From Microglena sp. YARC (lineage: Eukaryota > Chlorophyta > Chlorophyceae > Chlamydomonadales > Chlamydomonadaceae): DNA of 64,000 nucleotides. Within the stretch, counting starts at the first letter, position 1; each line of letters opens with the position of its first letter. Under the pieces are notes generated by a model. The model was not told the origin of the DNA. It was given only the letters and a program-made list of their open reading frames with translations, and searched no databases. This document shows positions 8,682 through 59,042 of this stretch, piece after piece. The stretch lies in contig CM039463.1 in assembly GCA_022414725.1 (NCBI GenBank), positions 38,975,369 to 39,039,368 of the forward strand, given 5' to 3'. Both the position numbers and the translations under genes were made by a program.

Positions 8682-8909
8682 TGTTATTGACTGATTTATA
8701 TATCAGTCTCTGAGTCGGCATAATGCACACCGGTACCTTTCCCTCCTGGTACCGCGTTGCCTGCCGCCAGGCCACAGGCTAGCTGTGGCCTGCATGTGAC
8801 TGCAGTACCCTGCTGTACCCATCTCTATTCTATATGATTGCGCCTGTTGCGCTTAATAGCATCTTCTCCTCTATCGAGCCTATGCCGTTGTAACAATCTT
8901 ACATTAACA
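8682..8909 (+). repeat. HpLTR-1 5' LTR with hairpins
   Basis: Inverted repeats include GACTGATTTATATATCAGTC (8689-8708), CGGTACC...TGGTACCG (about 8731-8752) and GGCCACAG-GCTAG-CTGTGGCC (8770-8790). The first two correspond in position to hairpins in the HpLTR-2 LTR that differ in sequence but keep pairing. Confidence 0.88.
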
Positions 8910-9415
8910 GGTTATGTGCGCCATATTTAGACGCTAACGAAGAACAGCCGCTGCTTTCCGCGTTCGGAATCAGTTCCACTCTAACTTGTCGAAGGCCCGA
9001 GTTTTAACTAAGCACCTGGACTCCCTGAGCGGATCCTACTTCCCGCTGCTCCGCCTGCCGCTGCCTACCAAGAATCCTTGGATCTGCCACTGCGTCCTAC
9101 GACTGGAGCAAGCAAGAGCGACCACAAGTCACCGACATCTATGAAGTGAGTATAGGACGACGCCCTCACCGAGACCCACACAGTGCTGTATTGATTGCAG
9201 ACGATCAATTTGTCTACGACCTCAGCTTAAGAGAAGCTCCTGTCGTCGAAAATTGCCGCTTGGCAACGTTCAACCCCCGGTAATCCACTGGATCCCTTTG
9301 GATCGCCGATTCCCACACACACTCCATCCCCCCTTCCCCTACCCCGCCCTTGTAACTCCCCCTATCCCAACACTCCGACCTACAACGCCAAGACTCCTAC
9401 ACAGAAGACCTCACC
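8910..9415 (+). other. HpLTR-1 leader with half-tRNA primer site
   Basis: GGTTATGTGCGCC directly after the LTR resembles the initiator tRNA-Met half-tRNA site seen in Copia1-R. The rest is non-coding and becomes C-rich towards the gag start (9300-9400). C-rich leaders also precede gag in Copia2 and HpLTR-3. Confidence 0.65.
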
Positions 9416-10228
9416 ATGCAACCTCCCCGTATATTCACTGGTAACAACCTCTACAACTGGCGCTGCGCCAGGCAGAATATACTCCTCGCCTTCAAGTCCG
9501 ATAGGGACACCATTGCCATCGCTTTCGACTGCCAACAGGCGGTGGTCCTTGGCGAACCTGCTGACTCTGATGGTTACCCTGATGATGACATTACTTACCC
9601 TGTTGTTGCGGGTGCTGATCCAGCTGTTCCGGCTCGTGGTGTCCCCACCAGGATTTCCACCTGGAAGAACAACAAGGCCTTCAAGATCATCATAGATCAT
9701 GTGTCAGATGCAATCCAGCAGGCTATTCATGCTAACACAGATATGGCCACTAGAGCCTTCAGGTTTCTGGACTCCCTATACTATGAGGAAGGCAGCAGGC
9801 TAGAGCACACCACCCTGACTGCCCTCCTTGGAATACGTATGACTTCCACTGAATCCCTGCAGACATACCTCTCTAGGGCAGCTGATATGTATTCCCAGAT
9901 TCCCAAGATTCAAGGCACCCACATCGTTTCTACCAGCACCTTTCTCAACCTTATTGTCAAGGGACTGAACTCCCGTCCTAAGTATGATGGGTATATCAAT
10001 CAATTCAACCCCACAGCAATCACCACTTTTGCTATGCTCCAAAGTGCCATCTTCAACTGGTGCTTAGTGAAGCAAGTTGACCCTGCACCATCCCCCGAAG
10101 AGGCTGAAATGGCAGCTGCAGCATACAGAGCCAGGAAGCCATTCAACAGCAGGCACCTCCCATTTAGAGACAGGACTATCTCCTACAAGAAGATGATCTG
10201 CTGGAACTGTGGAGGAATAGGCCATAGC
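9416..10228 (+). CDS. gag: HpLTR-1 gag (capsid and first half of zinc knuckle)
   Basis: This is a copia-type gag polyprotein that would form the RNA-packaging particle. The start MQPPRIFTGNNLYNWRCARQ is a typical copia gag opening (F-x-G-x-N-L-x-x-W). The capsid body contains ATRAFRFLDSLYYEEGSRLE, then LQTYLSRAADMYSQI, then FLNLIVKGLN, as in the UBN2 gag family. It ends in C-W-N-C-G-G-I-G-H-S, a CCHC zinc knuckle cut by Gypsy-2 at 10229. The knuckle's last cysteine lies at 21556-21558 beyond the insertion, which confirms the empty site. The frame from 9416 to the insertion is intact. Confidence 0.88.
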
Positions 10229-10576
10229 TGTAACAGCTCAGGATGCACTTAGCAGCCTGGGGGGTTATTCTAGTGTAACAGTCTACGTGATGTATGTTTA
10301 TGTGTAAGTCGATATGCGTAAGCTAGCAGAACAGTAAGGGGGTTACCTAGGTAGGGGATGTAGAGTTGCTCGGGAAGAACGTCTTCGTGGAAGGAGTAGA
10401 AGGGTTCGTTCTGATTAGCTCGTGTCTATGTACGCAACGTGTGCGTTGTGAGAGATGATGCAGTACATGGGTATGGTACTGTATCATGTGCGTTCGTCAC
10501 GTGGCTTACGGGTAAGGTGTACCCGTATGCCTTGCTGGAAGGCCAGAGTACCCGTGAAGGGTTCTGTACCGTTACA
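10229..10576 (-). repeat. Gypsy-2 3' LTR
   Basis: This 348-bp LTR reads TGTAACGGTACAG...CTGAGCTGTTACA on the minus strand. It is duplicated at 20974-21542. Confidence 0.9.
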
Positions 10577-10744
10577 CTCCCCCCCTCCAGAAGAGATGCG
10601 GACCCCGCATCTGATCGTAAGAAAGGTGGCTTGTGAATACCAGTTGTAGTCGGATGTGCCGTGCTCAAAATATACTTGATGAATCAAGTTGGTTTCGGAG
10701 AGAACCATTTAACATCCCTTTTGAGTACTCCGGGAAAGATAGCT

Positions 10745-11054
10745 TTATGAATAAAGCAATCTGACCGCCGTGTCGTATGCGTTGAGTGCGATGGGTTGGT
10801 GATGGGCCCGTTTTTTCGACGTACGTCGGGACATAACGGGCGTAACACGGGATTTCCATGCATCGACGATGTGAGGGGCACTTTTCTTGACCGCCTTGGC
10901 GAGTTCCCAAGTGTCATGCTCAATACCGAAGTCTTGCCATCGGACCAAGTATTCGAGACGTCGTTTGCTGGATGTGCCGATGACACGCGATTTCTCGCGC
11001 ATGATGCATTGGATATTCCAAATTGGAGCGCCGTCGGAGTCGAACTCAAGCGGT
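10745..11054 (-). pseudogene. pol: Gypsy-2 chromodomain at the end of pol
   Basis: The minus strand encodes KRRLEYLVRWQDFGIEHDTW, a chromodomain core (E-Y-L-V-R-W...D-T-W-E). This domain sits at the integrase C-terminus of chromoviruses and is thought to guide integration to marked chromatin. It is in a different frame from integrase, so a frameshift lies near 11050. The open frame ends before a basic tail. Confidence 0.82.
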
Positions 11055-12181
11055 TATCCCACATGGACAACGCCATCGGAGCGCCAATGCTTGATCAAAC
11101 CCACGTGAAACACGGGGTGGATACGCATCATCTTGGGCAAAGCCAAGCGGCACGCCGTGACTTGCCGGACGACTCCGGTGACCTCGTCGCGTGGACCAAT
11201 GCATTCCGTAATCGTATAGGGGCCAACAAAACGAGGCGTAAATTTTGGTTTACCCGTTGCCTTGAACTTCATATTGCGGGTGGACAAGAGAACTTTATCA
11301 CCAAGGTTGAAGAAAACCTCCGTTTGTCGTTTATCGTAATGGGCTTTCTGCCAATCCTGAGCGGCTTGCATGCATGCCTTGCATTGATCTTGTCGTTCAA
11401 TGTGATCGGCCCACCAATTGTTGGCAGCCGGACATTTCGATTCGACCTCAGCCTTGAGCGGCGTCGTAGGGTCGTAACCAAGGTACGCCCAAAATGGGGT
11501 GTTTTGAATGGACTCTTGGTAGGAATTGTTGATTGCAAATTCCACAAGCGCCAAAGACTTATCCCAATCGTCGTGGTACGGCCCCACGTAGTGGCGAATC
11601 ATGTCCTCGATGACTCGGTTCATGCGTTCCGTCTGACCGTCAGTTTGAGGATGAAACGCAGTCGAAAACGCCTGTCGCGTGCCCATCAATCGATGGAGAG
11701 CCACGCCGAAATGGCCCGTGAATCGCGCATCGCGATCACTGAGGAGTTTCTTTGGGATACCATGATATCGGATGACAGGATTCAGGTATAGGGAAGCGAA
11801 TTCCTCTGCGTTTATCGTAGTATGACAAGGTTCGACATGAACCATCTTCGACATTTTGTTGACGAACACTGCGATGGCATCATGGCCAGAAGAAGTCGGC
11901 GGAAGCGCCGTAATAAGGTCCGTGGAGACGCACTCCCAGAATTTCTCAGGAATTTCCACGGGAACCATGGTACCGTTAGGCTTTGCGTTTCCTGGCTTGT
12001 TCGTTTGGCACTTATGGCATTGTTTGACGAAGGCAGTAACATCTGCCGTGACTTTGGCCCAAGTAAAAGTGCGGGTGACCAGCTCCAATGTCTTGGTGCG
12101 ACCGCAATGGCCCATGTAAATAGGGTCGTGAGCTTCGCGGATAATATCCAGGCGAAGGGCTGCGTCGAGGGGGACACACAA
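11054..12181 (-). CDS. pol: Gypsy-2 integrase
   Basis: This is the integrase that inserts the cDNA. The HHCC zinc domain is visible (H-DPIYMG-H ... C-HK-C-Q). The catalytic D,D,E triad follows: Asp in STDLITALPP, Asp in LLSDRDARFTG, Glu in DGQTERMNRV. The GPY/F-like region shows FVGPYTITECIG and then HPVFHVGLIK, typical of gypsy integrases just before a chromodomain. The first methionine is internal to the polyprotein; coding continues upstream to about 12240. Confidence 0.92.
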   Translation of the reverse strand: MCVPLDAALRLDIIREAHDPIYMGHCGRTKTLELVTRTFTWAKVTADVTAFVKQCHKCQTNKPGNAKPNGTMVPVEIPEKFWECVSTDLITALPPTSSGHDAIAVFVNKMSKMVHVEPCHTTINAEEFASLYLNPVIRYHGIPKKLLSDRDARFTGHFGVALHRLMGTRQAFSTAFHPQTDGQTERMNRVIEDMIRHYVGPYHDDWDKSLALVEFAINNSYQESIQNTPFWAYLGYDPTTPLKAEVESKCPAANNWWADHIERQDQCKACMQAAQDWQKAHYDKRQTEVFFNLGDKVLLSTRNMKFKATGKPKFTPRFVGPYTITECIGPRDEVTGVVRQVTACRLALPKMMRIHPVFHVGLIKHWRSDGVVHVG

Positions 12182-12459
12182 AAATTCGCGTCCGTACTTG
12201 TTCTTTTGAACCAGTAACCGTTTCTGGAAAACTTATCGCGAAGGCGCTTGCAGCCCGGCGTGAAGTTCGAGTCCTTTTTGTATCCAGCCAAAATTCGATC
12301 CATGATGGACGAAGAGGAGGGAGTCGACGCAGCGGGCATGTGCCGACTGCGTCGTCGCGTTTCCTTGACCGGAACTGAAGGTACGGGGAGGACCGTCGGT
12401 GGGCGGGGAAGGATATCAACGACTGCGGGACCGACTGCAATAGGACGTTGCTTTTTCGA

Positions 12460-13166
12460 TCAAGGCCGGCATTTGCTGACCAAGAGAGAGAAGACCAACA
12501 GCTGGTGCGCAACCGCGACGTTGGCGGGGGCAGAGAGGTTGGGATTGCGACTGATTGGGTCTGCCATATTATTGCGGCCCGCGCGATACTCCCAAGTATA
12601 GCTAAAGGGCGCAAGGTCCTCCTGCCATCGGCCCATGCGTCGTGAAAGGACCGCCTTGGTGTCAAAATACGTGAGCGGAGTGTGGTCAGTGACCAATGTC
12701 ATGTGGGAACCTTCGAGGTAGCATCGCCACTCGGTCAACGCGTGGACGATCGCTAGCATTTATTGTTCCGTCGTTGTATAATTCAGCTCCGCTGGGATAT
12801 ACTTCTTGCTGGCGAAGGCGATGGGGTGTTTATCTTGTAAGAGCACCGCGCCCGTACCAAGCAAAGATGCGTCGGTAATGACTTCGAAAGGTTTGCTGAA
12901 ATCCGGCAGCGCGAGGACTGGAGCGGATAGCAAAGCTTCTTTGAGGCCTTCGAATGAGACAAGATGTTCTTGTTTGAACAAGGCGCCTAGTTCACCCTTG
13001 ATGTTAGACAAGGTTTGAAGAGGGACAGCGAGAGACGAATAGCCTTGGATAAATTTGCGAAAATAATTGCACAAACCGAGGAACGAGCCGATCTCTTTCG
13101 CCGTTTTTGAGTAGGCCAGTCACGGACTGTGCCGACCTTCTTCGGATCAACTTTAATTCCGTCGCG
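12460..13166 (-). pseudogene. pol: Gypsy-2 reverse transcriptase connection and RNase H
   Basis: Two reading frames (12760-13074, 12460-12759) carry CNYFRKFIQGYSSLAVPLQ, the RNase H start FEVITDASLLGTGAVLLQD, the middle LAIVHALTEWRCYLEG, and VTDHTPLTYF. A TAA separates TTTEQ from MLAIVHAL where most relatives have Glu. A TGA follows GHYI near 13165, and there is a frameshift near 13090. The catalytic Asp of ITDAS and the Glu/Asp positions are recognisable. Confidence 0.85.
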
Positions 13167-14261
13167 TCAAATGTAATGACCCAGGAATTTAACTTCTGTT
13201 TTGTTGAAGGAACATTTGGAGAGTTTCGCGTAGAATTCGTTGTCCTGGAGGACCTGGAGAACCGTGGCCAAGTTGGCCAAGTGCTCCGCCGGAGTGCGTC
13301 CGTAAACCAAGATATCGTCTAAGTAGACCACGACGAACTTGTGCAAGTAGGGCGCGAATATTTGGTTCATGACCGCTTGGAATGTGGCCGGCGCGTTCGC
13401 CAAACCCATCCCAAGGACTTTAAATTCATACTGACCCATTGGGGTAGTGAACGCAGTCTTCGGCGCGTCCTCGTCCGAAATTCGTATTTGGTAATAACCA
13501 GACGTGAGGTCTAGGGAACTGACCAAAGTAGCTCCACCTAGACGATCAATGGTCTCGTCAATACGGGGAAGGGGATACCTATTTTTAATCGTGATGTTGT
13601 TGAGTGCTCGCCAATCGCAAACAACATGGTATCCCGTTTCACCCGGTTTCGCTATGATCATAATCGGCGCACCATACGGGGACGAGCTCGGGGCGATGAA
13701 TCCTTGCTGCAACAGGTCGGAGACGTATTCCTCACATAGTAAGGTCTCGGCTGGACTCATGCGACGATTTCTGCGATATGGCGCGTAAGCATTGTCTTGC
13801 GTTTTGATGACGTGAGGTATAACTCGATGGTTAGGAGTCCCCATAGGCAAATTGTTGAAGACTTTGCGATACTTCCATAGGAGAGCGCGCAGGTCGCTGG
13901 CCGAGATGAGCGTTTTATCGTCGTGGTCAAGGATGTTGTCGCGGATCCAATTTTCGAAATCCATGCTTGCCACCGGGGGACCAGGTAAAGGCCCGTCGGA
14001 CGGCAGTAATTTTGTCAGCAATTTCGCCCGTTCATCGGCAGTGACGTTAGACGCCGGCAAATCCGCTCGGGATTCGCGGACATTGACCATGACATGGTTA
14101 GCGCCAGCTTTTAAAAGCTTTGCTGCCTTGCGACCCGTAATGACTGGGTCATCGGTTGACTTGCCCGAAAGTGCCATAGTGAAGAAGGAATGAGCTGTTT
14201 CGTCCCGCTGCCTGTTTATAGGTGTTATACAGCAGCCGTACCGTTTGAGCGACAATGTCAT
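13167..14261 (-). CDS. pol: Gypsy-2 reverse transcriptase
   Basis: This is the RNA-directed DNA polymerase domain. Motifs in order are FIAPSSSPYGAPIMIIAKPG, VVCDWRALNNITIKNRYPLP, LVSSLDLTSGYYQIRI (first catalytic Asp), TAFTTPMGQYEFKVLGMGLA, NAPATFQAVMNQIF and VVYLDDILVYGRTPAEH (catalytic YLDD). It ends FLGHYI followed by TGA. About 150 residues of protease-RT linker precede. The frame is intact through the whole catalytic domain. Confidence 0.93.
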   Translation of the reverse strand: MTLSLKRYGCCITPINRQRDETAHSFFTMALSGKSTDDPVITGRKAAKLLKAGANHVMVNVRESRADLPASNVTADERAKLLTKLLPSDGPLPGPPVASMDFENWIRDNILDHDDKTLISASDLRALLWKYRKVFNNLPMGTPNHRVIPHVIKTQDNAYAPYRRNRRMSPAETLLCEEYVSDLLQQGFIAPSSSPYGAPIMIIAKPGETGYHVVCDWRALNNITIKNRYPLPRIDETIDRLGGATLVSSLDLTSGYYQIRISDEDAPKTAFTTPMGQYEFKVLGMGLANAPATFQAVMNQIFAPYLHKFVVVYLDDILVYGRTPAEHLANLATVLQVLQDNEFYAKLSKCSFNKTEVKFLGHYI

Positions 14262-14354
14262 GCGATCGTAGTCTAGGACGGGCTTTTTCGTCGCGCATCC
14301 AGTCGGATCCGAGGATTAGGTCTAATCCTCCAGGAAGTTTGTCGACGACATGGA
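14262..14354 (-). pseudogene. pol: Gypsy-2 protease, C-terminal piece
   Basis: The minus strand encodes VDKLPGGLDLILGSDWM, the end of a retropepsin (I-L-G-x-D-W). The N-terminal half lies at 15637-15860 beyond LINE-T copy 2. TGGA occurs at both edges of that insertion (14351-14354, 15633-15636). Confidence 0.82.
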
Positions 14355-15632: not shown

Positions 15633-15636
15633 TGGA

Positions 15637-16093
15637 CGAACACTTTGCCAACATATCGTTGTATGTGGATAGGGAGCGTGACCGTCCCGCGGATTTTGAT
15701 AATCCCGTCGTTAGCGCAAGTGTATCCGTCGCGTTCGTTTTCTCAAGGGCGGATGTGCAAACCGAGAACCTCAGCCGTTTGCTTTTCCATAAAACAACCT
15801 GTCGCGCCTGAGTCTGTCAATGTGAGCAATTGCTTCGCTCCTGATCGGGCGTTGAATAGCATATCGGGGGCAGCAGCGGAGTTGACTTCGTACACCCGAT
15901 TAGCTCGCGTCATGAGCACGGGGGAAGTATTCGTGTTTCGTTGTGCGTGATTGCGACGGATGTACTTCGTTGACCATCTGGCAGCGATTTGTTTTTCGCG
16001 AACTTTGGGATCCAATGCCTCAGTCCGACCACCAGTGTTTTTTTCGACGGGTTTCAACCGGACTGGGAATGCCCTCCTCAGGTGCGGGGCCAA
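15637..16093 (-). pseudogene. pol: Gypsy-2 protease, N-terminal piece
   Basis: The retropepsin active site LTLTDSGATGCFMEKQ (D-S-G) is visible, followed by AEVLGLHIRP, a stop, and IRGTVTLPIHIQRYVGKVFV up to the LINE-T edge. A frameshift near 16040, in a run of seven T, separates it from the upstream frame (VETRRKKHW). Confidence 0.85.
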
Positions 16094-16610: not shown

Positions 16611-16628
16611 TACCTGACCGGCCGGTTC

Positions 16629-19253: not shown

Positions 19254-19444
19254 CTGCATGGGGGGAAGGACGTGGCGAATTAGACAATGGCGTCGGGTTA
19301 GTGGGAAACAGTGTGCGATTCACGGGTAAAACATGGTGAGGTGTACCCAAGCGGGAAGGTGTGTCCTCAATATGATCAAATGGATTGCAAACCGAGAAAG
19401 GCAGGTTGGTTCTATACCCATCCCATCCGTCAGACTGCGCTCAC
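19254..19444 (-). other. Putative 191-nt intron in Gypsy-2 gag
   Basis: On the minus strand the donor is CAG|GTGAGC (19445/19444) and the acceptor is CCTTCCCCCCATGCAG|AG (19254/19253). A branch-like CTAAC and CTAAT lie 20-40 nt upstream of the acceptor. Splicing joins NLAQSQA to EIAPILAENA in frame and extends one coiled-coil-like helix. Unspliced reading runs to a stop at 19320. Confidence 0.55.
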
Positions 19445-21542: not shown

Positions 21543-21797
21543 ATAGCTCCTGAGACTGCACCAGTGAGGACACTGACCTGGCTTGCTTTCAAGCCAGCTG
21601 ACTCAGATGAAGCCGACCACGGATCTAAGTCACCCCCCAAGCAGAGATCAGGAGATGACAAGGACTCTGACGACAAGAAGACTCCCAAAAAGACCAGTGA
21701 CAGGAGGCAACGTCCCAGGAGATACCAAAGCAGGGGACGCCATGCCCACGTTGCTGATGGTGACCAATCCACCTCCACTTCCAACTCTGACAGTTAG
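21543..21797 (+). pseudogene. gag: HpLTR-1 gag, C-terminal part
   Basis: Across the Gypsy-2 insertion the zinc knuckle is completed (C-x2-C-x4-H-x4-C, with a TGA at its twelfth position). The continuing open frame is shifted and encodes a charged Ser/Lys/Asp-rich tail (PPKQRSGDDKDSDDKKTPKK). Such basic, disordered tails commonly follow the knuckle in copia gag. Confidence 0.7.
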
Positions 21798-21949
21798 GGT
21801 GAAGAACACAACTTCCTGTCCCTGGCACTGGATGATGACAACCTCCAGTCCATGAGATTTGCTACACCAACCAGAGGCAAGTCTGTTTCATTTTCCTTGC
21901 CACCTGACCCCCTGGCTGATACAGCATTCTTTGGACAAATAAGTGCTGA

Positions 21950-22440
21950 TGATTAATGCACTATAGAAGATGATGGAGAAGTTTTCCAGGCAGCACTGCA
22001 GACAGAATGTATCATAGATACTCCAGCCCACTCTCATGCAACCAGTAACATCTCCTATCTGCATGACATTCAGGACCTTCCACAGCCTATTAGACTGCAG
22101 CTGGCAGATCAAGACTCTCCACCTATCTTCTGCAAGCAGATAGGGAAGGCTAAGATCCAGGGCCATGGCAGGACTCTGATCATCCTGAACAATGTACTCC
22201 TTGCTGACTGCAACATGCCCAACATCATTAGCATTAATGCAGCCACCAGCCTGTGTCCAGACCTCCAAGTCCACCTGTCCAAGACCCAAGCCATCCTCTC
22301 CATCCCAAGACCATCTGGTACCAAACTGCTCCTCTCATGCCCCAAAAGGCATGGACTCTACCTCACCCAAACTTCACCAGTCACTACCAGCAATCCCTCT
22401 ATCCCTGTGGGTCCTCCCATTGCCTACATCATGATGGTTA
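21950..22440 (+). pseudogene. HpLTR-1 degenerate protease and pre-integrase region
   Basis: The stretch ECIIDTPAHSHATSN aligns in layout with copia proteases, but the active-site D-T/S-G reads D-T-P. Further on, TLIILNNVLLADCNMPNIIS resembles the NVL-x-V-P-x-x-x-x-N-L-I-S block before the pre-integrase domain. HGLYLTQTSP marks the usual end of that block. Sequence after this point does not lead into integrase. Confidence 0.68.
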
Positions 22441-22860
22441 CCAAGACTCCATCAACTCACACTGGCTCTGAGACAGAGCAGTACCCACCCACTCATGAGA
22501 TCTCACCCAGTAGAGCTGATCAAGACTGCCAGGATCCCCCCTCTACTTCTGCTCCATCTGCACCCCACACTGATTTTGAGATAGGGCAGTACCCACCCAC
22601 TCATGTGGAGGCAGACCAAGACCTCCAGGATTCCCCCTCTAACTCTGCTCCATCTGCACCCCACACTGACTTTGAGACAGGGCAGTACCCACCCACTCAT
22701 GTGGAGGCAGACCAAGACCTATAGGACCATCCCCCTCCTTTCTGCCAGTACCATTCCACTTCCACTGCAGGCAACTTTAAAGAATCTGTTAGTGGTACTG
22801 ACAGTGATGACATGCCAGAGCTCATCCATCAGGAGGTTCACAAACAGCAGGATGACCCTT
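22441..22860 (+). repeat. HpLTR-1 linker with about 102-bp tandem repeats
   Basis: About two and a half copies of a 102-bp unit encode a 34-residue peptide repeat containing EIGQYPPTHVEADQDLQD and STSAPSAPHTDF. The first copy reads SETEQYPPTHEISPS. HpLTR-3 encodes the related LGQFPPTHETSPSDLS, so the motif is conserved between two RT-less families. Confidence 0.78.
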
Positions 22861-23711: not shown

Positions 23712-24131
23712 TTCAGTTACAAACATTGCTCTTCATCTGTTGGATTAGACTTGAACACTCTAGAATTTATTAAATTACCTGCCTACTGTACTGCCCCATG
23801 TACTTCCACGGGTCACACCCCTTTCTAAATTTATGACTATTCTAGTCTCTTCATGATGTCTGTGCTTTAATTTAGGATCAACCTAATGTAGCTCACCAAA
23901 ATTATGGGGGGACTAGTCAAGACATCCTGTCTAAAGGCAAATCCTCTAGTCTCGAATCATGCAACTTCTCGTAACCAAGGATATCTTCACAAGCCTTAAC
24001 CAAGCCTGGACTTTCCTTAACAAGCTTCCCAGCAGTCTCCCTGCTACCTAGCCTTTATATTTTAATTTTCTTATGCCCCTCAGTTAATTCCAGGAATTCT
24101 TGAGCTCAAGAATACCTTGAATTGGGGGGGA
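23712..24131 (+). other. HpLTR-1 3' untranslated region and polypurine tract
   Basis: This stretch is non-coding. The last 60 bp (CTTATGCCCCTCAGTTAA, then a block around GAATTCTTGAGCTCAAGAAT) recur before the HpLTR-2 3' LTR at 51503-51565. It ends in the polypurine tract TTGGGGGGGA. Confidence 0.8.
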
Positions 24132-24359
24132 TGTTATTGACTGATTTATATATCAGTCTCTGAGTCGGCAAAATGCACACCGGTACCTTTCCCTCCTGGT
24201 ACCGCGTTGCCTGCCGCCAGGCCACAGGCTAGCTGTGGCCTGCACGTGACTGCAATACCCTGCTGTACACATCTCTAATCTATATGATTGCGCCTGTTGC
24301 GCTTAATAGCATCTTCTCCTCTATCGAGCCTATGCCGTTGTAACAATCTTATATTAACA
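24132..24359 (+). repeat. HpLTR-1 3' LTR
   Basis: This 228-bp LTR differs from 8682-8909 at about six positions by eye. Confidence 0.9.
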
Positions 24360-49430: not shown

Positions 49431-49484
49431 CCTCCCCACCCCCTGCACACCGGGCATGCCAACACCACGGGCATATACTCCTCC

Positions 49485-50285: not shown

Positions 50286-50377
50286 CACTTACTATGTCTG
50301 CCATGGTGACTTTCCCCAGCTGCGGCGTACGGGAGGGTCCCCTTAACACCACGCCCCTCCAGGCGTTATCTTTTTTT
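50286..50377 (+). other. LINE-D 3' end
   Basis: The stretch CCTTAACACCACGCCCCTCC, then AGGCGTTATC, T7 and ATTACC, matches the SINE end at 21226-21263. ATTACC also belongs to the target duplication, so the element end and target overlap by microhomology. Confidence 0.8.
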
Positions 50378-50865
50378 ATTACCTTGTTGTTAATGGACAT
50401 AGTGCAGGCACTGGAGTCAAAATTGACTGACATAGTGGGATTTGATTTGATAGCTGCAGCCATGGACATAAGGTTGGGTGTTCTTGGATCATCATTGAGG
50501 TGGACATTTTTAAGGTTGTGAATCTTGCCATTGTCTGCTCTGATGAGGGCGCTTCCAGATCTGCTAATGTAGGTGAATCCTGATGCAGTCTGAACTTTGA
50601 TATGAGGTGTTATGGGTTGTATGTCAAATAACAGCGACTCATTTCCTGTCATGTGTGAGGTAGCTCCTGTGTCCATGATCCAGTTAACTGCCATCCGATC
50701 TGTGCGTGGAGATGCATTGAGGGCATTCGATGGTGGGTTAGATGTAGGGGAGGATGATCGGGTCATGTTTTCATATGCGATGGAAATGGATGCAACAGAT
50801 TCGGCTGGGGCTGGTGTATGTTGTCGAGCGTCTGATGAGCGCTCGTACAGGGATCTGAGGGCCAA
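50378..50865 (-). pseudogene. pol: Copia2 protease and flanking region
   Basis: The minus strand encodes NWIMDTGATSHMTGNESLLF, a copia protease active site (D-T-G). The usual downstream blocks follow: GSALIRADNGKIHNLKNVHL, then PRTPNLMSMAAAIKSN. Coding continues beyond LINE-D at 44627. Copia2 keeps an intact D-T-G, unlike the HpLTR elements. Confidence 0.85.
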
Positions 50866-51252
50866 TAGCAGCTCGTCTGGATCATTGTGGTGTTTGTGTT
50901 CCTTGCTTATTTGTTCTGAGAGGTGCGCAAGGATGTACTTGATCTGAAAACTAGGTAACTGGTTGGATCCAGGGGGAAAGTAGAGTTAAGATACCTTAAG
51001 TTCAGCTTCCATAGCATCAATCCAGTAGTCAAAGAAGAGTGTGTGGAAGATGAAGACCGGAGGAGGCTTCCTCTGGTTTCGGGTTGCGGGTTGTTGCATA
51101 GTAGAAGAGTAGTTGCAAAGCAACGGCGAGGGAGGTGGGAAGCGAAGGGAGGGTAGGAGATTGGAGAAAGCGGTGGGAAGTTGCGAAGCAATAGGGTTGG
51201 GAGGAAATTGAGATCGGCTGATGTTGCGGGGCAATTGTGTGGGAGAGGGGAA

Positions 51253-51292
<40 letters not shown>
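50866..51292 (-). pseudogene. gag: Copia2 gag start and poly-C leader
   Basis: From 51097 the minus strand reads MQQPATRNQRKPPPVFIFHT and FDYWIDAMEAELKVS, then a frameshift. The layout (PPPVF...W...MEAEL) is that of a copia gag opening. The leader upstream contains about 38 consecutive C (minus strand) at 51254-51291. Most of gag between 50866 and 50980 is out of frame or missing. Confidence 0.6.
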
Positions 51293-51293
<1 letters not shown>

Positions 51294-51502
51294 GTTGGTT
51301 ACACAGTGAAGACTGAAGTAGAAGAAGGAGGCACGCGACCAGTGCGCTCATATCGAGAACGGGAGTCTGCAGGAAGATCCTGCAGACCCGTGTAGGTCAC
51401 AGCTAGCCTGTGGCCTAGTGGCAGGCAACTCGGGACTAGGAGAGACCAGGCACCGGTATGCATTATGCCGACTCAGTGTCCGACGTATATCGGACAATAA
51501 CA
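51293..51502 (-). repeat. HpLTR-2 3' LTR
   Basis: Hairpins are GTCCGATATACGTCGGAC (51478-51495), a GGCCACAG/CTGTGACC stem (51395-51415) and GTCTGCAGGA/TCCTGCAGAC (51361-51389). Confidence 0.85.
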
Positions 51503-52700
51503 TCCCCCCCAACTTGAGGTATTCTTGAGCTCAAGAATTCCTGAAGTTAACTGAGGGGCATAAGAAATTAATATATATATATAAAAGAAATACAATGACT
51601 AAGAGCTGGTCTGCTTCGGTCAAGAACTTGGACAATAAGATTATTCAGGTCAAGACTAAAGGAAGCACTTGGAAAGTCTCGAAGTCAGTAAGTCACTATA
51701 TGTGGCTGTACATTGGTCAGGCTTGTCAAGAGATCAGATGTCAGATAATCAGGACTGTGGCAAGGCGGGCTGGCACAGTCAAGGTGGTAATCTTATCTAA
51801 GAACTCTAAATCACTGGTCTAGGTTGGTAGCTTTTAAGGAGCTGCCAGGTCGGTACAGACTTAAACTAAAGTAAGTCTATTAGGGGAAGGAGAATTTATA
51901 CTGTCAAACCTGAGGCCATCTAACTATTCCCCCTCTAATTGGGAAGTCGAAATCCTGCAAAGACTTGTCAAATCAAGAGTGACATCAGGATAACGAAATC
52001 AGAGACTGGCAGGACTAAGTGTGATACATCCCACCTAGAAGGCAGTTGGGATGCATAAGGTCAGCATACTATTCCCCCCATAATTTGGGGGCTCTAAATG
52101 GATCCACAAATTGGATGACATTATGATGGATCCACAATGCGGATAACATTATGAGAAATAACTAAAGGTAACTAAAGGTAGACATCCCCCGCTAGCTCAT
52201 AACTATCTGTCCAGATGGAAGGATAGGGTGAGGTACTTCCAGTATCATTTATAAGATATAAGAAGGTGGGCTTGACAGTAAATACAACTGTCTTCCATAG
52301 GGGAGGTACATGCTGAGAAGTCATTTGAAAACAGCATGTAACTAGAGGGCCAGGTTGGCAAGAAAACTAGTCAAACTGCTGTGTTAGTACATGGCAGGAC
52401 ATGATTTAAATTCCTAGAGTGTTCATTGCTATTAAAAAATGACAAGCAGGTCAGGGGGCACATTTAAATGCCAGGTGCTGGGATGTCATCCAGGGTCAGT
52501 AGCTTGGCTGCCATGTTGCTAGAGTTGTCGCCATGTCGCTAGGAGCTGTTGAGAAGGTAAAGGGCTTGTAGGGCCTGCTGGGGAACTGCAGGTCATTTGC
52601 GTACTTCTAGGGAGCTGCTGGGGAAATCAATCGGACTCTACTAGGGAGGTGCCATGTGGGTAGGAATGGTAGAACAGCGGTACTTGCGGTTTATGCAAGT
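51503..52700 (-). other. HpLTR-2 3' non-coding region
   Basis: The first 60 bp match the region before the HpLTR-1 3' LTR. The rest is moderately AT-rich with only short, unconvincing reading frames. Near 52170 there is a tandem AACTAAAGGT pair. I see no gene here. Confidence 0.6.
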
Positions 52701-53760
52701 CAGTGTGCAGATCAGATCATAATACTTAGATCAGCGCAGCATGAGGTAATCAGATCAGTGCATTCCCCCCGTTCAGTGAGGGTATCGCTCACTCACAAGT
52801 TTCATCTATCCTATGTCCACCAGGATGTGTGGCTTCTTGGGTGTCTTGTGACGGGGATGTGGACAGGGCAGGGGGGAAATGCCTTGGGAGACAGGGGTGA
52901 TGTGAGGATGGTTGATGGTTTTCTCCCATGCAATCAGAGCGTCAATGGGAGTGGGAGGCGTGGTTACGTGCTCATTCAGTGGATGTGGATGTGTTGTACG
53001 ATGTGGAGGTTGATGTGTCTGACGTGTGTGAGTTGGATGTGTGTGAGGTGGATGTGTCTGATGTGTGTGAGGTGGATGTACTGGATGTACTTGCATAGGT
53101 CCTAAGGTCCCCCCCATGCAAGTGAGCATCATCACTATCACTATCGGCAGCAAGGTATTCTTCCCCACCATGGGAAGTGGTGAGAGTGGGAGCAGAGTGG
53201 GCAGATGTGTCCTCATCAGGGGCACATGATGGTGCAGCATGTGATATGTGTAGTGCTGGACCATGGGCATCTACAGATGGGAATGGCATTGCATCTGCTG
53301 GTGAGGATTCATGGTGCAGGGGTTCTCCATACAGGGGTTCTTAATACAGGGGTTCTCCATACAAGCAGCTTGTGGATGTGGGAAAGGATGTTTTCACCCA
53401 GTTATCATGGAATAGTTGGGCACTATCTTCATCTGCTTGGTCCATCCAATCTGGTCTATCAATCAGGCCCCCCCCATGCAAGTGAGGATCATCAAGAGAG
53501 TTGCACCCATCAGGAGCTGTGGTGGGTATGGGGGCAGAGTGAGATGGAAGCACTTCAGCATTAGTCTGACTTGCTTAGGTATCAATCAGGTCCCCTCCAT
53601 GTAAGTGAGGATCATCAAGAGAGGTGCACCTATCAGAAGATGTGGTGGGTGTGGGGGCAGAGTGAGATGGAAGCACTGCAGCATTAGTCTGACTTGCATA
53701 GGTCCTAAGGTCCCCCCCATGCAAGTGATGGTCAGGAAGACAGGTGTCCCCAACAGCAGT
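52701..53760 (-). pseudogene. HpLTR-2 degenerate protein with tandem peptide repeats
   Basis: Minus-strand frames (52972-53289, 53341-53553, 53586-53810) encode a Thr/Ser/His-rich protein. An approximately 121-bp unit is repeated between 53465 and 53730, and a further partial match lies at 53100. The unit encodes CTSLDDPHLHGGDLID and LPSHSAPTPTT. There are stops and frame changes between copies. I recognise no domain. Confidence 0.55.
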
Positions 53761-53812
53761 GCAGAGTGCTGTGGTGGGTGTAGGGACAGAGTCGACCTCA
53801 TCAGGGACATAT

Positions 53813-54050
53813 TACATTACATTACATGTTAAAGTCTACTTGACACCGCGAGGGTGTATGAGACTCTGTGCTTTAAACAAAAAGAAAAAGCACCCACAAA
53901 GCAAAAACCCCATTACATCAGGGGTGTGTCGAGGACAAACAAACCAAACTCCCAACCACCGTTTTGGTGGCGTAGGTATTAAACCCCTTAGAGCCGGACC
54001 CAGATCTCAACCACTTACAGTGGCGGAGGTAAGAAGCTAACAAATGAGAA
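53813..54050 (-). mobile_element. LINE-T copy 3, short 3' fragment
   Basis: ATTAC repeats (53811-53825) are followed by the 3' untranslated region shared with 14355-14590 at near identity, including CCGTTTTGGTGGCGTAGGT. Only about 240 bp survive. No convincing target duplication is visible. Confidence 0.87.
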
Positions 54051-54244
54051 TATGTAAGACGTCCCGTCTGCTCAAGTTCTAATTGCAGGTTAGGGTGGAG
54101 GTGCAGGCTCGGGTACAGGGGTCCCCCATGCAAGCGAATAGCATTATCATTTGATATGGTATGGTGGCTCAAGATTGTGGATGTGGGAAACCCAGTCTTC
54201 ACCCAGTTATCATGGATTCTCTGAATGGTCATCTCTTGGATTTG

Positions 54245-54684
54245 ATTTTCCATGTATTGTTGCTTACATTGCATGTCTGCGAGCCCATATTGCAATTGGG
54301 AAATGATGGGATTGGGAGCAGTGTCTACTTTGAGGGCAGGGCGGGATAGTCCTAGGGGCAGAGATAGTCCTAGGGGCAGAGATAGCCCTAGGTTTGTTGG
54401 GTTTCCTGGGGGTGTGGATTTTGGGTTTCCTAGGGGTGTGGATGTTGGGTGTCCTAGGGCCAGTGATCATTTTACCACTAGTGCTACTGCTGGGGATCAT
54501 CCTACTGTCGGGCAGACGGGTTGAAGATGGCTCCTTCAAGGTCTCCTGCAAGATCTCCTTCAAGGTCTCCTTCAAGATCTCCTTCAAGGTCTCCTTCAAG
54601 GTCATGATGTTCACACACACGTCTCGAAGGAGAGGATAGACGACGGGTAAAGTGAAGTCCAGCGAGAGCGTCCGCAAACGACAA
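54245..54684 (-). pseudogene. HpLTR-2 low-complexity protein region
   Basis: The frame 54264-54677 encodes KETLKEILKETLKEILQETL from 15-bp repeats (54525-54604), then repeats of HTPRKPKIHTPRKPNKPRA and ISAPRTI. The (ETLKE/ILK) stretch would be a charged helix. It lies in the first third of the element, where gag would be, but no capsid or knuckle motif is visible. Confidence 0.5.
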
Positions 54685-55459
54685 TCAGATCCCCCCCATT
54701 CCGGCTGTGCGCGGGTAGGGCTGCCGGAATGCCAAGGAGAAATTTGCAGAGTTGCAAAGGCAAGAGGGCGGGGGGGGGGGGGGGGGGGTAGGAAGAGAGT
54801 GTGGAGGGGCAGGAGTAGGAGGGGGAGGGGTGGAGGGAGGAGGCTGAAGGATGAGGGAGAGGAGGTGGAGGAGGGTGGAGGTCAGGGAGGGAGTCTGGGG
54901 CTTGTGAAGCTTGTCAGTTCTTCAGTCTTGGTCGTGTGTTCGGAGGCAAGGGGAGGTGATGTTGACAGCGAAGGGGGGGATCCGAATGGATCCGATTTGT
55001 GAAATGGCGTTGGTAGTAGCAGGGGGGGTAAGGGGTGACGGATTCAGTGAGCGGGAGGGGGAGGGGGGTTAGGTTGGGGGTGGGTGGCTTGCGATGGCGT
55101 GCAGGGCTGAATATCTCCTCGGCACAAACAATCTCAATCTCAATCTCAAAGAATTGGTAACGCTGTGTATGATCTAATGAGTTAGCAACTCACGTCAAAG
55201 ATCTACTCAGACTCCTGGACTGCGTCTACTTGTCTTCTTGGACGGATTGTAGAGACAACGGGAGAGTTGTGTGGGCAGTAGGCGAGGCAGCGCAGGTTAG
55301 ATTCTTCACGTGAACACGTAGGCAATCCAGGGCCAAAAGCAGTACTCAAGCCGTCGAGCTAGTCTGAGGGAAAACTATCACCTTGTGCAGGGCAGAAGAT
55401 CGTCCTTGGCACAGGCGCAGTGGCGTTGCTTTGGTTAGCGTTCAGGGACCATGACCTTT
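54685..55459 (-). other. HpLTR-2 leader
   Basis: This non-coding region is G-rich on the plus strand, with a 19-base G run at 54770-54788. It includes (CAATCT)n near 55125-55145. It corresponds to the C-rich leaders of the other HpLTR elements. Confidence 0.55.
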
Positions 55460-55669
55460 TGTTGGTTACACAGTGAAGACTGAAGTAGAAGAAGGAGGCA
55501 CGCGACGAGTGCGCTCATATCGAAGACGGGAGTCTGCAGGAAGATCCTGCAGACCCGTGTAGGCCACAGCTAGCCTGTGGCCTAGTGGCAGGCAACTCGG
55601 GACCTGGAGAGACCAGGCACCGGTATGCATTATGCTGACTCAGTGTCCGACGTATATCGGACAATAACA
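55460..55669 (-). repeat. HpLTR-2 5' LTR
   Basis: This copy pairs with 51293-51502. It includes the CCAGG-centred hairpin CGGGACCTGG...CCAGGCACCGG (near 55600-55623) in its best-preserved form. Confidence 0.85.
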
Positions 55670-55678
55670 GGGGGGGGT

Positions 55679-55922
55679 TAGCTTTCCGGAGCGTTATGTC
55701 GTAAGCACTGACACAGGGAAGGGACTAGGGCGTATGCTTACAATCGTGATAGCATGTCAGGCGACATGGCAGGTATAAGAAGAGAAAGGCGACAGTACCT
55801 CAGGGTACTGCCGCCGGTAGGTGCTGGCCCTATCGGGCAGAGGCACTACAATGGAAGCTTCCAGGCAGAGGGCCTGGCGCACTAAGACACTCTAGCTGGA
55901 CCGGGAGAACCGGTCTATAACA
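55679..55922 (-). repeat. HpLTR-3 LTR
   Basis: The minus strand starts TGTTATAGACCGG at 55922, preceded by a polypurine tract (TATTGGGGGGAA). Inverted repeats are GACCGGGAGAACCGGTC (55899-55915), CCAGGCAGAGGGCCTGG (55861-55877), GACAGTACCTCAGGGTACTG (55791-55810) and GCATGTCAGGCGACATGGC (55752-55770). The inner boundary is unclear because the LTR runs into a G tract at HpLTR-2. It may be the 3' LTR of HpLTR-3 or the 5' LTR of Copia2. Confidence 0.7.
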
Positions 55923-55929
55923 TTCCCCC

Positions 55930-56794
55930 CAATATCTGTGTGTGGCCAAGGAGTATGCACTAACAAGGGCAGCTTGCAGGCAGATGGTCCATTTGAGTTG
56001 GTCTTTGATGTGGGGGGAGCAGGTGTCATACTGGTGTACTAGTGTGGCTAGGCTGCTAGTGTGGAGGTGAAGGGGTGAAATGATAGTGTCTGGGTGTTTA
56101 GGCATGTCTGATGTGGACCAGATGCTATTGGGAAGTGATCTGAGGTGTGTGTACTGGTAAAAAATGCTGTGATGAGCTCGAGTTGGTACATGGGTACTCT
56201 GAACATGTTGACCAGGAGCTGTGGTGGTACTGTTGTGGGTTGGCAGATCTTTTCCAGAATGGTCATGAGTTCACCTTGGGGATAGTGTCCTGGGTGGGTT
56301 CCTACAAGGCAATTGAAGCTGACCCTACATGTAGTGCTGTTGTTTGGGGCATCATCAGATTCATAGTCACATGATAATGGGGATGGGGGTGGGGAGAAAT
56401 TTGTGATACCAACAGGTTTGAATATGTTTGGTGGGTGGCTTCTGATTTGGGGTGGTGTGGGGGGTTGTTGTGCCTGCAGGATCTGGGGTTGTGGTTGGTT
56501 TGCAACGTTGGTCTGGAGGGCAACTGTGACACTGTGGTACATGTGGGTCAGGGTTGCATGCATTTTGGTCAGGTGGCCCAGGACTTTGTGAGCGTCTGAA
56601 TTGCGTTTCTTGGTTGCTGACCTAGTGTTTTTGGTAGGCACAGTAGGTGGGGTAGCTAGGAAGGTTGGGAATGGGGGTGAATCCAGCTGCTTTACAGCAT
56701 TCTGCCCATGTGGAGGGCAGGTCTTGGACTGTTGGCCAGTATAAGGGTTCATCTGGAAATCCTGGGGGTGTGTGCAGGGGTTGTTTAGACACAT
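55930..56794 (-). pseudogene. HpLTR-3 C-terminal protein, shared with HpLTR-1
   Basis: The frame 56048-56794 includes KVLGHLTKMHATLTHMYHSV and VGTHPGHYPQGELMTILEKI. A frameshift near 56060 leads to the frame with LVHQYDTCSPHIKDQLKWTI and CLQAALVSAYSLATH. The last part matches HpLTR-1 (LQWAICLQAAMVNAHAHT) at the same position, just before the 3' end of the element. Function is unknown. Confidence 0.62.
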
Positions 56795-56929: not shown

Positions 56930-57505
56930 GGCACTAGGGCATTGGAGGGAGTTATGGCCATAGCCTCCACAGTTCCAGCATGTCATGAGATCTGAGGGGA
57001 TTCTGTCTTGTGGGGATTCTTTCCTATGATTGGTATGATGGGGAGGTGCTGGAGGATTGGGGGCAGGGGGAGGTGCAGGAGGAGGAGGTGGGGCTGGAGA
57101 AGGGGGAGGTGGGGCAGGGGGAGGAGGAGGTGCAGGTGGAGGCGGGGAAGGGGGAGAGGTAGAGAAGCGTTGTCTCCACTTGGACTAGCCTGCTGGCCCC
57201 AGGTGATGAACCATGGTGTAGGGCTCAAAGTACCATGGGTGATCAGGGAGGTCGTTGTCTGGATGATCAGAAGGAGAAGGCTGGTACAGACTGGTGGTGT
57301 ACAGTCCACTTGCTGATGATACGTGGCATTCCATGCCAGTAGTGTAGCAGATCAGGCCGTCTCCATGCCGGTAAGGTAGCTCAATCTGTGCAGTACAACA
57401 GTTAGTATGAATGTGTATGTCTTCGTCATAAGCCATGACTGCAGGAGCACTGATGAGGTTGAAGGAGTTGGGCACGGGCACAAGAAGGACATTGAGCAGT
57501 GTCAC
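56930..57505 (-). pseudogene. HpLTR-3 pre-integrase-like stretch and fifth zinc knuckle
   Basis: The minus strand encodes TLLNVLLVPVPNSFNLISAP, which resembles the NVL-x-V-P...N-L-I-S block of copia pol. After a frameshift a Pro/Leu-rich low-complexity region follows, then C-WN-C-GGYG-H-NSLQ-C near 56937-56980, a perfect C-x2-C-x4-H-x4-C knuckle at an unusual place downstream of the protease region. Confidence 0.65.
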
Positions 57506-57511
57506 TACTAG

Positions 57512-58924
57512 TCATATACCCTGAAGTAGTACAGCTGTGCCAGTGTAGCAGAAGAAAACTGGTGTAGAGGAGTTCGGGGGAAAGACTGACACTGGTGGGT
57601 TGAGAGGTGTTATCCTGATAAGACAATCAGCATTTGAAGTCATTTGCAAGGTAGAGTCTGTGGCGAGACACCAGTGGCCGTGGAAGCAAATAGATAAATC
57701 ACTGGGGGAGGTTTCATGAGTGGGGGGGAACTGTCCTAGCTCAGAGTCAGTGGTATCAGGGTTCTCACCGGTTTTGGGCTCGTTGCCATCTCCAGAGTCA
57801 TCTCCAGAGTCTTGGGGTGGGGACTCCAGTTGAGTAGCAGTGGCCTGGCAGGGGGTTGGACATCTTGATTCATGATGGCCATAGCCTCCACAGTCTGCAC
57901 AGGTCCTGCTGGTAGGTTGGACCCTGGTGGCCGAGAAGAATTGCTTCCCATAGTGCCCTTTGCCATTACAGTTGATGCAGACCTCTGTAAGCTTGTTGGG
58001 GTGAATGCTGAGAGATGGGCTGCTAGGTCTCTGACAACTGGTGCACTGTCCCTCATGATGTAGGAGTCCCCCACAGTTATCACAGTTGTGAATAGTTGAT
58101 GCAAAGGGGGAAGTGTTTGGGCATAAAGAGGCAGTGTGCCCAAACCCTGTACATATGAGGCACTGGGAAGATGCAGGTGGCCACATACCTTCTAGCCTGT
58201 TTGGTGGTTTGGTTTCAGGGGTCACTGGTTGGGATACTTCAAAGTTGAGTCCCCATGCGCTGAGTATAGGGATGGCTCCACGTAGCAGGTCCGCGGCAGC
58301 TGCTGCATCCTCGAAAGCTCGGAGATCTGATGGCTCCCCGTCCGAGGTTGGAGTAGGTGGAGCTGTAGAGTCGCCGTCGTCAGACGGGGATGAAGGGGGC
58401 TGATGAACAGGGGTAGAGGGAGGAAAAGCAGCATCCTGGGTGGAAGCTGGATAGTAGTAGGATGCGTGGGGAGGTATTAGAGTTGTGTAGGAGTCGTAAA
58501 AGGGGTTTACGCATTTGAAGAAGTGGGGCGATAAGGTGAAACCTTGGCCCCAGTTTAGTATAATGTAGCGCAGAGATTTAGCCGCGTTATTGGTGTACGT
58601 GTCTAGCTTTGCAGCAAGGGTGGAAGTGCAGTTTCGCAGAATATGGTCCATAGCCAGATAGTTGGATACGGGTGTTATTCTGCTGTCTCTAGGGTAGTGG
58701 TAACCATTGGAGGGTTCATCAATGGGGTCATAGTCTAGATCTCCATCAACGACTGAGAAGACAGAGGACTTTTCGAGCAGCGGGGCCACAAGTTCTGTAT
58801 ACCAGGTTGCGAAGATATCGTTACCACCCTTACCATCGTATGGAGTATTCCTTCGTCCTAGCATCGTGATGTCCTGAGTGGAACTGGGGTTGGGAATCGC
58901 GATGGGATGAGACGAAGTGGGCAA
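57512..58924 (-). CDS. gag: HpLTR-3 gag with four zinc knuckles and degenerate protease
   Basis: This intact frame of 470 codons starts at 58924 (MPTSSHPIAIPNPSS); MLGRRNTPYDGKGGNDIFAT at 58863 is an alternative start closer to the usual gag opening. The N-terminal half is capsid-like (YLAMDHILRNCTSTLAAKLD). Knuckles are C-LI-C-TGFG-H-TASL-C, C-DN-C-GGLL-H-HEGQ-C, C-IN-C-NGKG-H-YGKQ-F (last Cys lost) and C-AD-C-GGYG-H-HESR-C. Then come LGQFPPTHETSPSDLS and a protease-like WCLATDSTLQMTSNADCLIR in which the active-site D-S/T-G reads D-S-T. Fusing gag to a dead protease in one open frame is unusual. Confidence 0.78.
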   Translation of the reverse strand: MPTSSHPIAIPNPSSTQDITMLGRRNTPYDGKGGNDIFATWYTELVAPLLEKSSVFSVVDGDLDYDPIDEPSNGYHYPRDSRITPVSNYLAMDHILRNCTSTLAAKLDTYTNNAAKSLRYIILNWGQGFTLSPHFFKCVNPFYDSYTTLIPPHASYYYPASTQDAAFPPSTPVHQPPSSPSDDGDSTAPPTPTSDGEPSDLRAFEDAAAAADLLRGAIPILSAWGLNFEVSQPVTPETKPPNRLEGMWPPASSQCLICTGFGHTASLCPNTSPFASTIHNCDNCGGLLHHEGQCTSCQRPSSPSLSIHPNKLTEVCINCNGKGHYGKQFFSATRVQPTSRTCADCGGYGHHESRCPTPCQATATQLESPPQDSGDDSGDGNEPKTGENPDTTDSELGQFPPTHETSPSDLSICFHGHWCLATDSTLQMTSNADCLIRITPLNPPVSVFPPNSSTPVFFCYTGTAVLLQGI

Positions 58925-58998
58925 GAGGAAGGGAAAATATTGTGGTTAGGAGGAAATGGAGATCTTCTACAGGAAGTAGATGACGGGAATTTGAGGAG

Positions 58999-59042
58999 GG
59001 GGGGGGGGGTCCGGGTGGGGGGAGGGGGGGGGGGGGGGGGGG
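58999..59042. repeat. Interrupted poly-G tract
   Basis: Three runs of 10 to 24 G are separated by short TCCGGGT- and A-containing spacers. They form the leader of HpLTR-3 and abut the TIR of the next segment. Other long G runs lie at 51254-51291, 54770-54788, 60970-60992 and 61020-61037. Confidence 0.85.

Follow-up and report, generated by a model that had tools for sequence, protein, structure and literature searches.

This analysis concerns long terminal repeat (LTR) retrotransposons of a green alga that encode a protein of their own but no polymerase. It starts from a 64,000-nucleotide stretch, here called the window, of contig CM039463.1 of Microglena sp. YARC (GCA_022414725.1; positions 38,975,369 to 39,039,368 of the forward strand; G000:C2:38975369-39039368 in our numbering of the 568-Mb, 2390-contig genome that was searched). 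The window is made up of mobile elements nested one in another and stacked, and Rfam and transfer RNA (tRNA) scans of it gave no match. Two of these elements, E1 on the plus strand and E3a on the minus strand, had been described in an initial annotation as a reverse transcriptase (RT)-less lineage that shares a conserved C-terminal protein and might parasitize autonomous copia elements. Their features are collected in Table 1.

Table 1. E1, E3a and associated elements in the window (TSD, target-site duplication; omega, ratio of nonsynonymous to synonymous change; ORF, open reading frame; PPT, polypurine tract).
Feature	Position	Strand	Remarks
E1, whole element	8682-24359	+	LTR element split by a nested element
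E1 5' LTR (TG...CA)	8682..8909	+	TSD GACTG at 8677-8681
E1 primer-site region	8910..8924	+	starts GGTTAT
E1 copia-type gag, ending at the zinc knuckle, the site of the nested insertion	9416..10228	+	Retrotran_gag_2 E=1.4e-4; omega 0.149
Nested LTR element, outside E1	10229-21542	.	TSD ATAGC; minus-strand ORFs gypsy-like by eye
E1 continuation: zinc knuckle end and charged linker	21548..22007	+	broken in the window copy
E1 protease-like domain	22008..22406	+	matches Pol_BBD in intact copy L028; motif D-T-P in the window copy, mostly D-T-A elsewhere
E1 repeated GQYPPTH linker	22475..22709	+	repeat number differs among copies
E1 C-terminal domain ORF, 254 aa	22947..23711	+	omega of shared variants 0.222
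Hairpin ATTCTTGAGCTCAAGAAT, just 5' of the PPT	24096..24113	+	one covarying pair
E1 PPT	24124..24131	+	
E1 3' LTR	24132..24359	+	TSD GACTG at 24360-24364
E3c, 5' part of an RT-bearing-type copia	50386..51291	-	poly-C leader, intact D-T-G protease; apparently interrupted by a LINE-like element
E3b, separate LTR element	51292..55669	-	LTRs 55669-55459/51502-51292, 96.7%
E3a 3' LTR (TGTTATAGACC...)	55677..55922	-	exact end uncertain; PPT and LTR from 55922
E3a C-terminal block, E1 homologue	55950..56105	-	39 other scored family places at 80-95%
E3a protease-like region LATDSTLQMTSN	57310..57676	-	extends beyond a stop; 89 vs 42 +/- 6.4 shuffled
E3a ORF	57512..58924	-	gag-like portion (several zinc knuckles), then GQFPPTH and the beginning of the protease-like region

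E1 bears the marks of a copia LTR element, namely TG...CA LTRs, a primer-binding site, a PPT and a 5-bp TSD. Its LTR pair is 97.4% identical, and BLAST extends each end by one base; priming may be by a Met-tRNA fragment. By eye, the insertion site of E1 is in the gag region of a different copia (ORF from 24418). The segment 10229-21542 is a separate nested element with its own TSD. The window copy carries stops and a frameshift, and no protein is possible from it; intact copies lie elsewhere.

In such intact copies, the E1 ORF runs to about 1020 codons and encodes a copia gag, a zinc knuckle, a protease-like domain, GQYPPTH repeats and a C-terminal domain. One of them, L028, has a single 1021-codon ORF matching zf-CCHC (5e-6), Pol_BBD (5.6e-5) and Retrotran_gag_2 (0.13). 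Both the Pol_BBD match of L028 and the Retrotran_gag_2 match of the window gag alone (1.4e-4) are below the curated cut-offs; in the database protein P0003, a close E1 relative, Pol_BBD is above its cut-off. The protease-like region aligns at 34% identity with an ordinary copia protease also present in the window (E=1e-6, two-sequence comparison). Gag and protease are thus of copia type, and a pol with integrase before RT is absent from E1 and present in its relative L064, so E1 is copia-derived without being a complete copia.

The absence of a D-[ST]-G protease signature had drawn attention in the initial annotation. The triplets given there are correct for the window (D-T-P in E1, D-S-T in E3a), but the family form is D-T-A: 52 pattern matches, drawn from overlapping loci in which the same copy may count twice, comprise 48 D-T-A, two D-T-P, two D-S-A and no D-[ST]-G. 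D-T-A also stands at the protease motif of P0023, an RT-bearing database polyprotein, and at that of Tnt1, an active element of tobacco. The idea that the E1 protease is dead was abandoned on account of P0023, and the missing signature appears to be little evidence on activity in either direction.

The C-terminal domain matched no Pfam model and, by sequence, no PDB entry. Structure prediction, which had been proposed for this region, yielded no fold: the model, built from three sequences, reached a mean predicted local distance difference test (pLDDT) score of 36, gave no fold evidence and was not used for a fold search. Homologues of the domain occur among the database proteins P0001-P0003. 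P0001 and P0002 (ENA contigs of about 1 kb) are 62-64% identical to it in amino acids (aa) in alignment, while P0003 (JGI, 570 aa, D-T-A-A, C-terminally open) shows 81% identity with L028 across the aligned stretch, with gaps counted. These matches point to an undescribed domain adjacent to Gag, present in two of the families studied as well as in database proteins. A further protein, P0004 (EukProt), has an E1-type gag at 69%; its gene model fuses this gag to a C-terminal part that by eye resembles a tyrosine recombinase, maybe through a gene-model error. Its gene name is in the same style as that of P0006, another EukProt protein, and both may come from one species.

E1 is abundant. With the C-terminal ORF as DNA query, 783 candidates were found, the best 40 of which were scored and lie at 95-100%; in the protein search, the best 150 of 2216 first-look candidates were scored, all at 88-100% aa, so that these figures are lower bounds. 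Hand counts gave a stop-free match in 122 of the 150 places, and in 21 of the 150 the frame around such a match also reaches 1000 codons or more, although listed frame lengths can be inflated by runs of N. Twenty copies were fetched by rank of DNA similarity to the window copy. Twelve have two full-length LTRs (element length 4.54-4.92 kb, LTR identity 0.964-0.996), with an exact 5-bp TSD in ten and four of five bases in L009, while the twelfth, L022, is a tandem of the form LTR-internal-LTR-internal; the remaining eight show a single full-length LTR within the fetched stretch. None of the 20 copies contains a YVDD-type or LYGLKQ RT motif, and no RT, integrase or RNase H domain was found in the ORFs scanned of window E1, window E3a or L028. 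The reported absence of these enzymes is thereby borne out, for E3a in the window copy. Normal TSDs in an element with no integrase of its own imply that E1 was integrated by an integrase encoded outside it. Elements of the terminal-repeat retrotransposon in miniature (TRIM) and large retrotransposon derivative (LARD) kinds are without coding capacity; E1 has such capacity and falls outside that definition.

Selection on the E1 protein was assessed from the DNA-ranked copies. Variants shared by at least two copies were treated as changes in source lineages and singletons as mostly post-insertion changes, and the neutral expectation was taken from 232 singleton changes in the leader and 3' untranslated region. 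Of 21 sequences (the window copy plus the 20 fetched), only those matching from end to end were used (14 for gag, 16 for the middle and 20 for the C-terminus), codons with gaps or more than one change being excluded; the counts are tree-free and the p-values treat changes as independent. Synonymous and nonsynonymous shared variants number 26 and 11 in gag (omega 0.149, p 2e-8), 35 and 24 in the middle (0.249, p 1e-7) and 18 and 11 in the C-terminus (0.222, p 6e-5). Singleton omega is 0.324, 0.587 and 0.608, respectively, and shifted-frame controls for gag and the C-terminus gave 1.4-2.8. The synonymous excess is confined to the correct frame, with p from 0.01 to 2e-8 across the DNA-ranked sets, singletons included. 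Uncorrected pairwise ratios are 0.241 for gag and 0.314 for the C-terminus. In a second set of 30 protein-ranked C-termini, which includes the window copy and several of the 20, shared-variant omega is 0.111, under a ranking that biases toward low nonsynonymous counts. Because the shared variants are mostly synonymous, the E1 protein is selected; the ORF is under selection along its whole length by both the frame and the mutation-spectrum controls, and constraint on gag is no weaker than that on the C-terminus (0.149 versus 0.222). The earlier proposal of a selected protein is upheld for E1, where omega lies well below 1 and not near it and where the fetched copies are uniform and not fresh deletions of pol. 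Origin of E1 by recent deletion of a standard pol was rejected on account of this uniform arrangement of gag, protease-like and C-terminal domains together with the selection.

E3a, named HpLTR-3 in the initial annotation, is a second, diverged family; that it is a family follows from a DNA search in which the best 40 of 375 candidates scored at 80-100%. The shared C-terminal block stands up well, with 40% identity to E1 over 52 aa (score 101 vs 28 +/- 5; 0 of 500 shuffles as high), and in the protease-like region none of 500 shuffles reached the observed score. The copia-like gag with zinc knuckles claimed for both elements is present in E1 as Retrotran_gag_2 and in E3a as knuckles, but the two gags barely align apart from the knuckle (53 vs 36 +/- 5; 6 of 500 shuffles as high). 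Likewise, the GQFPPTHETSPS linker follows the protease-like region in E1, as described, but precedes it in E3a (GQFPPTH). An upstream resemblance of E3a to the E1 stretch 'PLKPSDLD..TTW', seen by eye, was insignificant (38 vs 39 +/- 6) and was discarded.

That E1 and E3a have different LTRs is true, but the LTR of E3a had been misassigned: the pair at 55669/51502 was dropped because it bounds E3b, and no second copy of the E3a LTR was found in the window. The E3b LTR is 81% like that of E1 over 125 bp, and a terminal hairpin is common to both; E3b may represent a third kind of element within this lineage, now decayed. No gag or pol was seen in E3b by eye, only HLHGGDL-type coding-like repeats. 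E3c has a short N-terminus without a zinc knuckle, resembling that of L080 by eye, and three of its best 40 scored relatives lie about 1.6 kb before RVT_2 matches by coordinate comparison. A single LTR links E3a to E3c, and E3b has inserted into the poly-C tract that lies between these two, an arrangement similar in style to the E1 tandem in L022.

RT-bearing copia elements of the genome were reached through an RVT_2 search, in which 150 of 4078 candidates were listed and the 3' side was fetched for 15. The L064/L059 LTRs are 98.8% identical, with ATAAC flanking both sides. The ORF from L064:2127 encodes Pol_BBD with an intact D-T-G from residue 164, gag_pre-integrs, integrase (rve), SH3 and RVT_2; in this ORF, the sole one of its kind fully scanned, there is no gag and no zf-CCHC. 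The CCHC pattern is absent from all seven N-termini read (L064, L075-L080), and in six copies of this kind, copia-A, only 143-161 aa precede the protease. Three N-termini (two copia-A, one E3c-type) matched none of the Pfam gag models. A complete gag-pol was thus not seen in the RT-bearing kin: all seven N-termini are without CCHC, and the Pfam scans gave no gag domain in any of those covered. One copia-A N-terminus scored above shuffles for none of eight relatives' gags, though its short length lowers the power of this comparison; the E1 gag, knuckle included, matches seven of the same eight. For the six copia-A copies, the uncorrected ratio of nonsynonymous to synonymous differences (pN/pS) is 0.50 in the N-terminus, against 0.12 in the protease and 0.73 in the spacer. 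Of 27 database relatives of the RT element, 22 have a readable protease motif, preceded by CCHC in 20. P0005 is undivided: its CCHC gag matches that of E1 (100 vs 31 +/- 5; 0 of 500 shuffles), its protease is 40% identical to that of E1 over 121 aa, and it shows 47% identity to the RT element. A 2306-aa frame at one RVT_2 match, considered as a fused gag-pol, was uninformative since the two fetched stretches are all N.

Both kinds of element have sequences in common at their ends. Six of the 15 sampled RT copies carry an E3a-like LTR (96.5, 95.1, 89.5, 85.5, 83.7 and 82.7% over 246-256 bp), and in eight of the 15 the last 39-65 nt of E1 are matched at 79-88%. A ninth match to the E1 end, in L071, is left uncounted as a partner, because the sequence there is the 3' end of an E1 in reverse orientation. 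GGTTAT is the primer-site start in both E1 and L064. A hairpin directly precedes the PPT, and over nine distinct termini 95.2% of cells pair, which exceeds 500 of 500 shuffles, as does the covariation score. The pair at its loop end is C-G in three termini, G-C in three, A-U in one, U-A in one and unpaired in one; as five of the seven pairs are invariant, the covariation rests on this one pair. What is shared is the whole LTR in E3a and, in E1, the primer-site start, hairpin and PPT but not the LTR. As for the larger relative with the same LTR that the initial annotation suggested looking for, RT-bearing copies with the LTR of E3a exist, and none with an E1-type LTR occurred among the 15. L069, L073 and L074 show no match to the E1 end; L069 matches the L062 LTR, and L073 and L074 match L069. 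L060, L061 and L063 lack any E1- or E3a-like end (best E 0.008 over 15 nt), but are weak controls as their LTRs may lie beyond the stretch. The stretches of these three, of L071 and of L070, which ends at the LTR start, may miss the partner LTR entirely.

We favour, at a probability of roughly 0.55, the reading that a copia lineage is divided into complementing Gag-elements and Pol-elements. E1 and E3a would be the Gag-elements, without polymerase or integrase, their product comprising a capsid part, zinc knuckle, protease-like domain and extra C-terminal domain. The Pol-elements would be those of copia-A, to which E3c is related; they carry the same LTR as E3a and resemble E1 in the start of the primer site, the hairpin and the PPT. 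Gag-element RNA would be copied and integrated in trans by the integrase, RT and RNase H of Pol-elements. As the N-terminus of the latter is short, weakly conserved and without a zinc knuckle, Gag-elements probably supply their particle protein in turn, in mixed particles and mutual need. From these sequences we infer trans-mobilisation, mixed particles, mutual need and a role for the C-terminal domain. More tentatively, the arrangement might be strictly obligate and bipartite, an ancestral copia gag-pol like P0005 having split into two separately transposing, mutually dependent kinds. It is conceivable, short of even odds, that the Gag-element lost integrase, RT and RNase H and gained the C-terminal domain while the Pol-element lost capsid and nucleocapsid, and likewise only a possibility that shared LTR, primer-site and hairpin-PPT signals hold the two together. 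The earlier proposal of a polymerase-less, protein-coding lineage living on autonomous copia elements is retained as to the missing polymerase and the selected protein, while parasitism is no more than a possibility: since neither a gag domain nor a zinc knuckle could be recognised in the RT-bearing elements read, complementation is at least as good an explanation.

The most serious alternative, itself doubtful but possible, is a semi-autonomous companion relationship in which Pol-elements lack nothing, their Gag being short and divergent, while Gag-elements add Gag and borrow enzymes without mutual need. Gag without a zinc knuckle is familiar from Ty1, the Pol-element N-terminus is somewhat constrained (0.50) and RVT_2 places are abundant. 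A precedent of this kind is RLG_Quinta, described as GAG plus a domain of unknown function with no RT or INT (PMC11302176). Against such a companion stands the short N-terminus, for which no Pfam gag model (three tested) and none of the eight relatives' gags was matched, compared with seven of eight for the E1 gag; the shortness of that N-terminus makes the gag-matching test weak. A leading role for the C-terminal domain, as a captured host or regulatory protein (targeting, anti-silencing) and the main selected part with Gag secondary, is improbable: the absence of Pfam and PDB matches and the 62-64% identity to P0001 and P0002 would suit it, but gag is at least as constrained, and the model at pLDDT 36 gives no fold evidence. 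Least probable, and already contradicted, is that the E1 copies are plain passengers, standard copia remnants left by recent loss of pol with the ORF intact by chance. Stops or frameshifts do occur in the window copy and many others; the synonymous excess restricted to the correct frame, the frames spanning 1000 codons or more at 21 of 150 places and the homology of the C-terminal domain in a diverged family and in P0001-P0003 speak against it.

Several points weigh against the division into complementing elements. The reading is drawn from sequence comparison, and the selection results apply to E1. The 15 RT copies sampled, out of 150 listed and 4078 candidates, include none with an E1-type LTR, and in the hairpin neither covarying pairs nor pair types are more numerous than in shuffles (428 and 121 of 500 as high). 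The knuckle is itself part of the E1 gag match to relatives; P0006, a Pol-element relative elsewhere with 44 aa ahead of its protease in what may be an incomplete gene model, and P0029 are without a knuckle; and the Pol-element N-terminus, with a pN/pS of 0.50, below 1, may be a reduced but working Gag. Other copia families in the genome are a possible source of Gag. Finally, the E1 protease may be active, to judge from its motif, and as D-T-A also occurs in P0023, the loss in Gag-elements is of integrase, RT and RNase H only.

LTR elements that lack RT are commonly regarded as parasites, and the TR-GAG elements of plants have gag as their sole ORF; the gag of the present elements differs in being fused to two further domains, one protease-like and one new and C-terminal. 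The closest precedent is the gypsy pair RLG_Quinta and RLG_Cereba of wheat, in which RLG_Quinta, with its intact GAG, has LTR parts, primer-binding site and PPT in common with the RT-bearing RLG_Cereba (PMC11302176). E1 likewise has an intact, selected gag ORF without RT or integrase; unlike RLG_Quinta, it is of copia origin and keeps a protease-like domain, and whereas RLG_Cereba encodes all canonical proteins including GAG, the partner here is without recognisable gag domain or knuckle. Pol-less Athila families of Arabidopsis, also gypsy, retain ORFs for gag, alone or with env, on which selection is purifying (omega about 0.19-0.38 in the table consulted; PMC2410132), but there the extra gene is env and the pol-bearing Athila keep gag. 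The rice copia Tos17 is mobile though without gag (PMC3977881), like the Pol-elements here; it differs in having two copies in the sequenced variety, and the abstract mentions no Gag-only companion family. The working principle is that of HeT-A and TART at Drosophila telomeres, where HeT-A encodes a structural protein only, TART supplies RT and the proteins co-localise (PMC4700185), although these are non-LTR, telomeric elements. Loss on both sides is absent from the available parts of these accounts, and no described case of reciprocal gag and pol loss came up in searches of open-licence papers; judged from sequence, it would be new. In Microglena the polymerase-less element is abundant and its ORF selected, and the RT-bearing kin read are without the part that E1 encodes. 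If true, the two kinds of transposable element would have undergone reciprocal reduction, a situation resembling that of multipartite viruses, and the reason why non-autonomous elements retain protein genes would become testable.

Some further features of the window and genome deserve mention. The nested element within E1 carries, in its right LTR, a short interspersed element (SINE)-like insert (21055-21262) with a tRNA-like head by eye and direct repeats TTATGTGTAAG; ARAGORN found no tRNA in it. Its 3' tail is 94% identical over 34 nt to 50340-50373, near the end of a long interspersed element (LINE)-like element. The latter (44700-50385; terminus GTTATCTTTTTTTATTACC) has what look by eye like RT and RNase H ORFs and apparently interrupts E3c at about 50385. 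Near-identical pieces (92-100%) of one repeated ORF-bearing sequence lie at 3229-3785, 14354-15395 and 53811-54050, and the same repeat occurs in L061, L063 and L064, that in L064 being 97.5% identical to part of E3b. Elsewhere, G000:C1:47006142-47017049 holds five RVT_2 matches on one strand with starts 2551-2552 bases apart, so that a copia RT piece is arrayed in tandem. Tandem repeats with units of 21, 8 and 84 bases occupy 59918-60459, 60896-61274 and 61393-62280 of the window, respectively.

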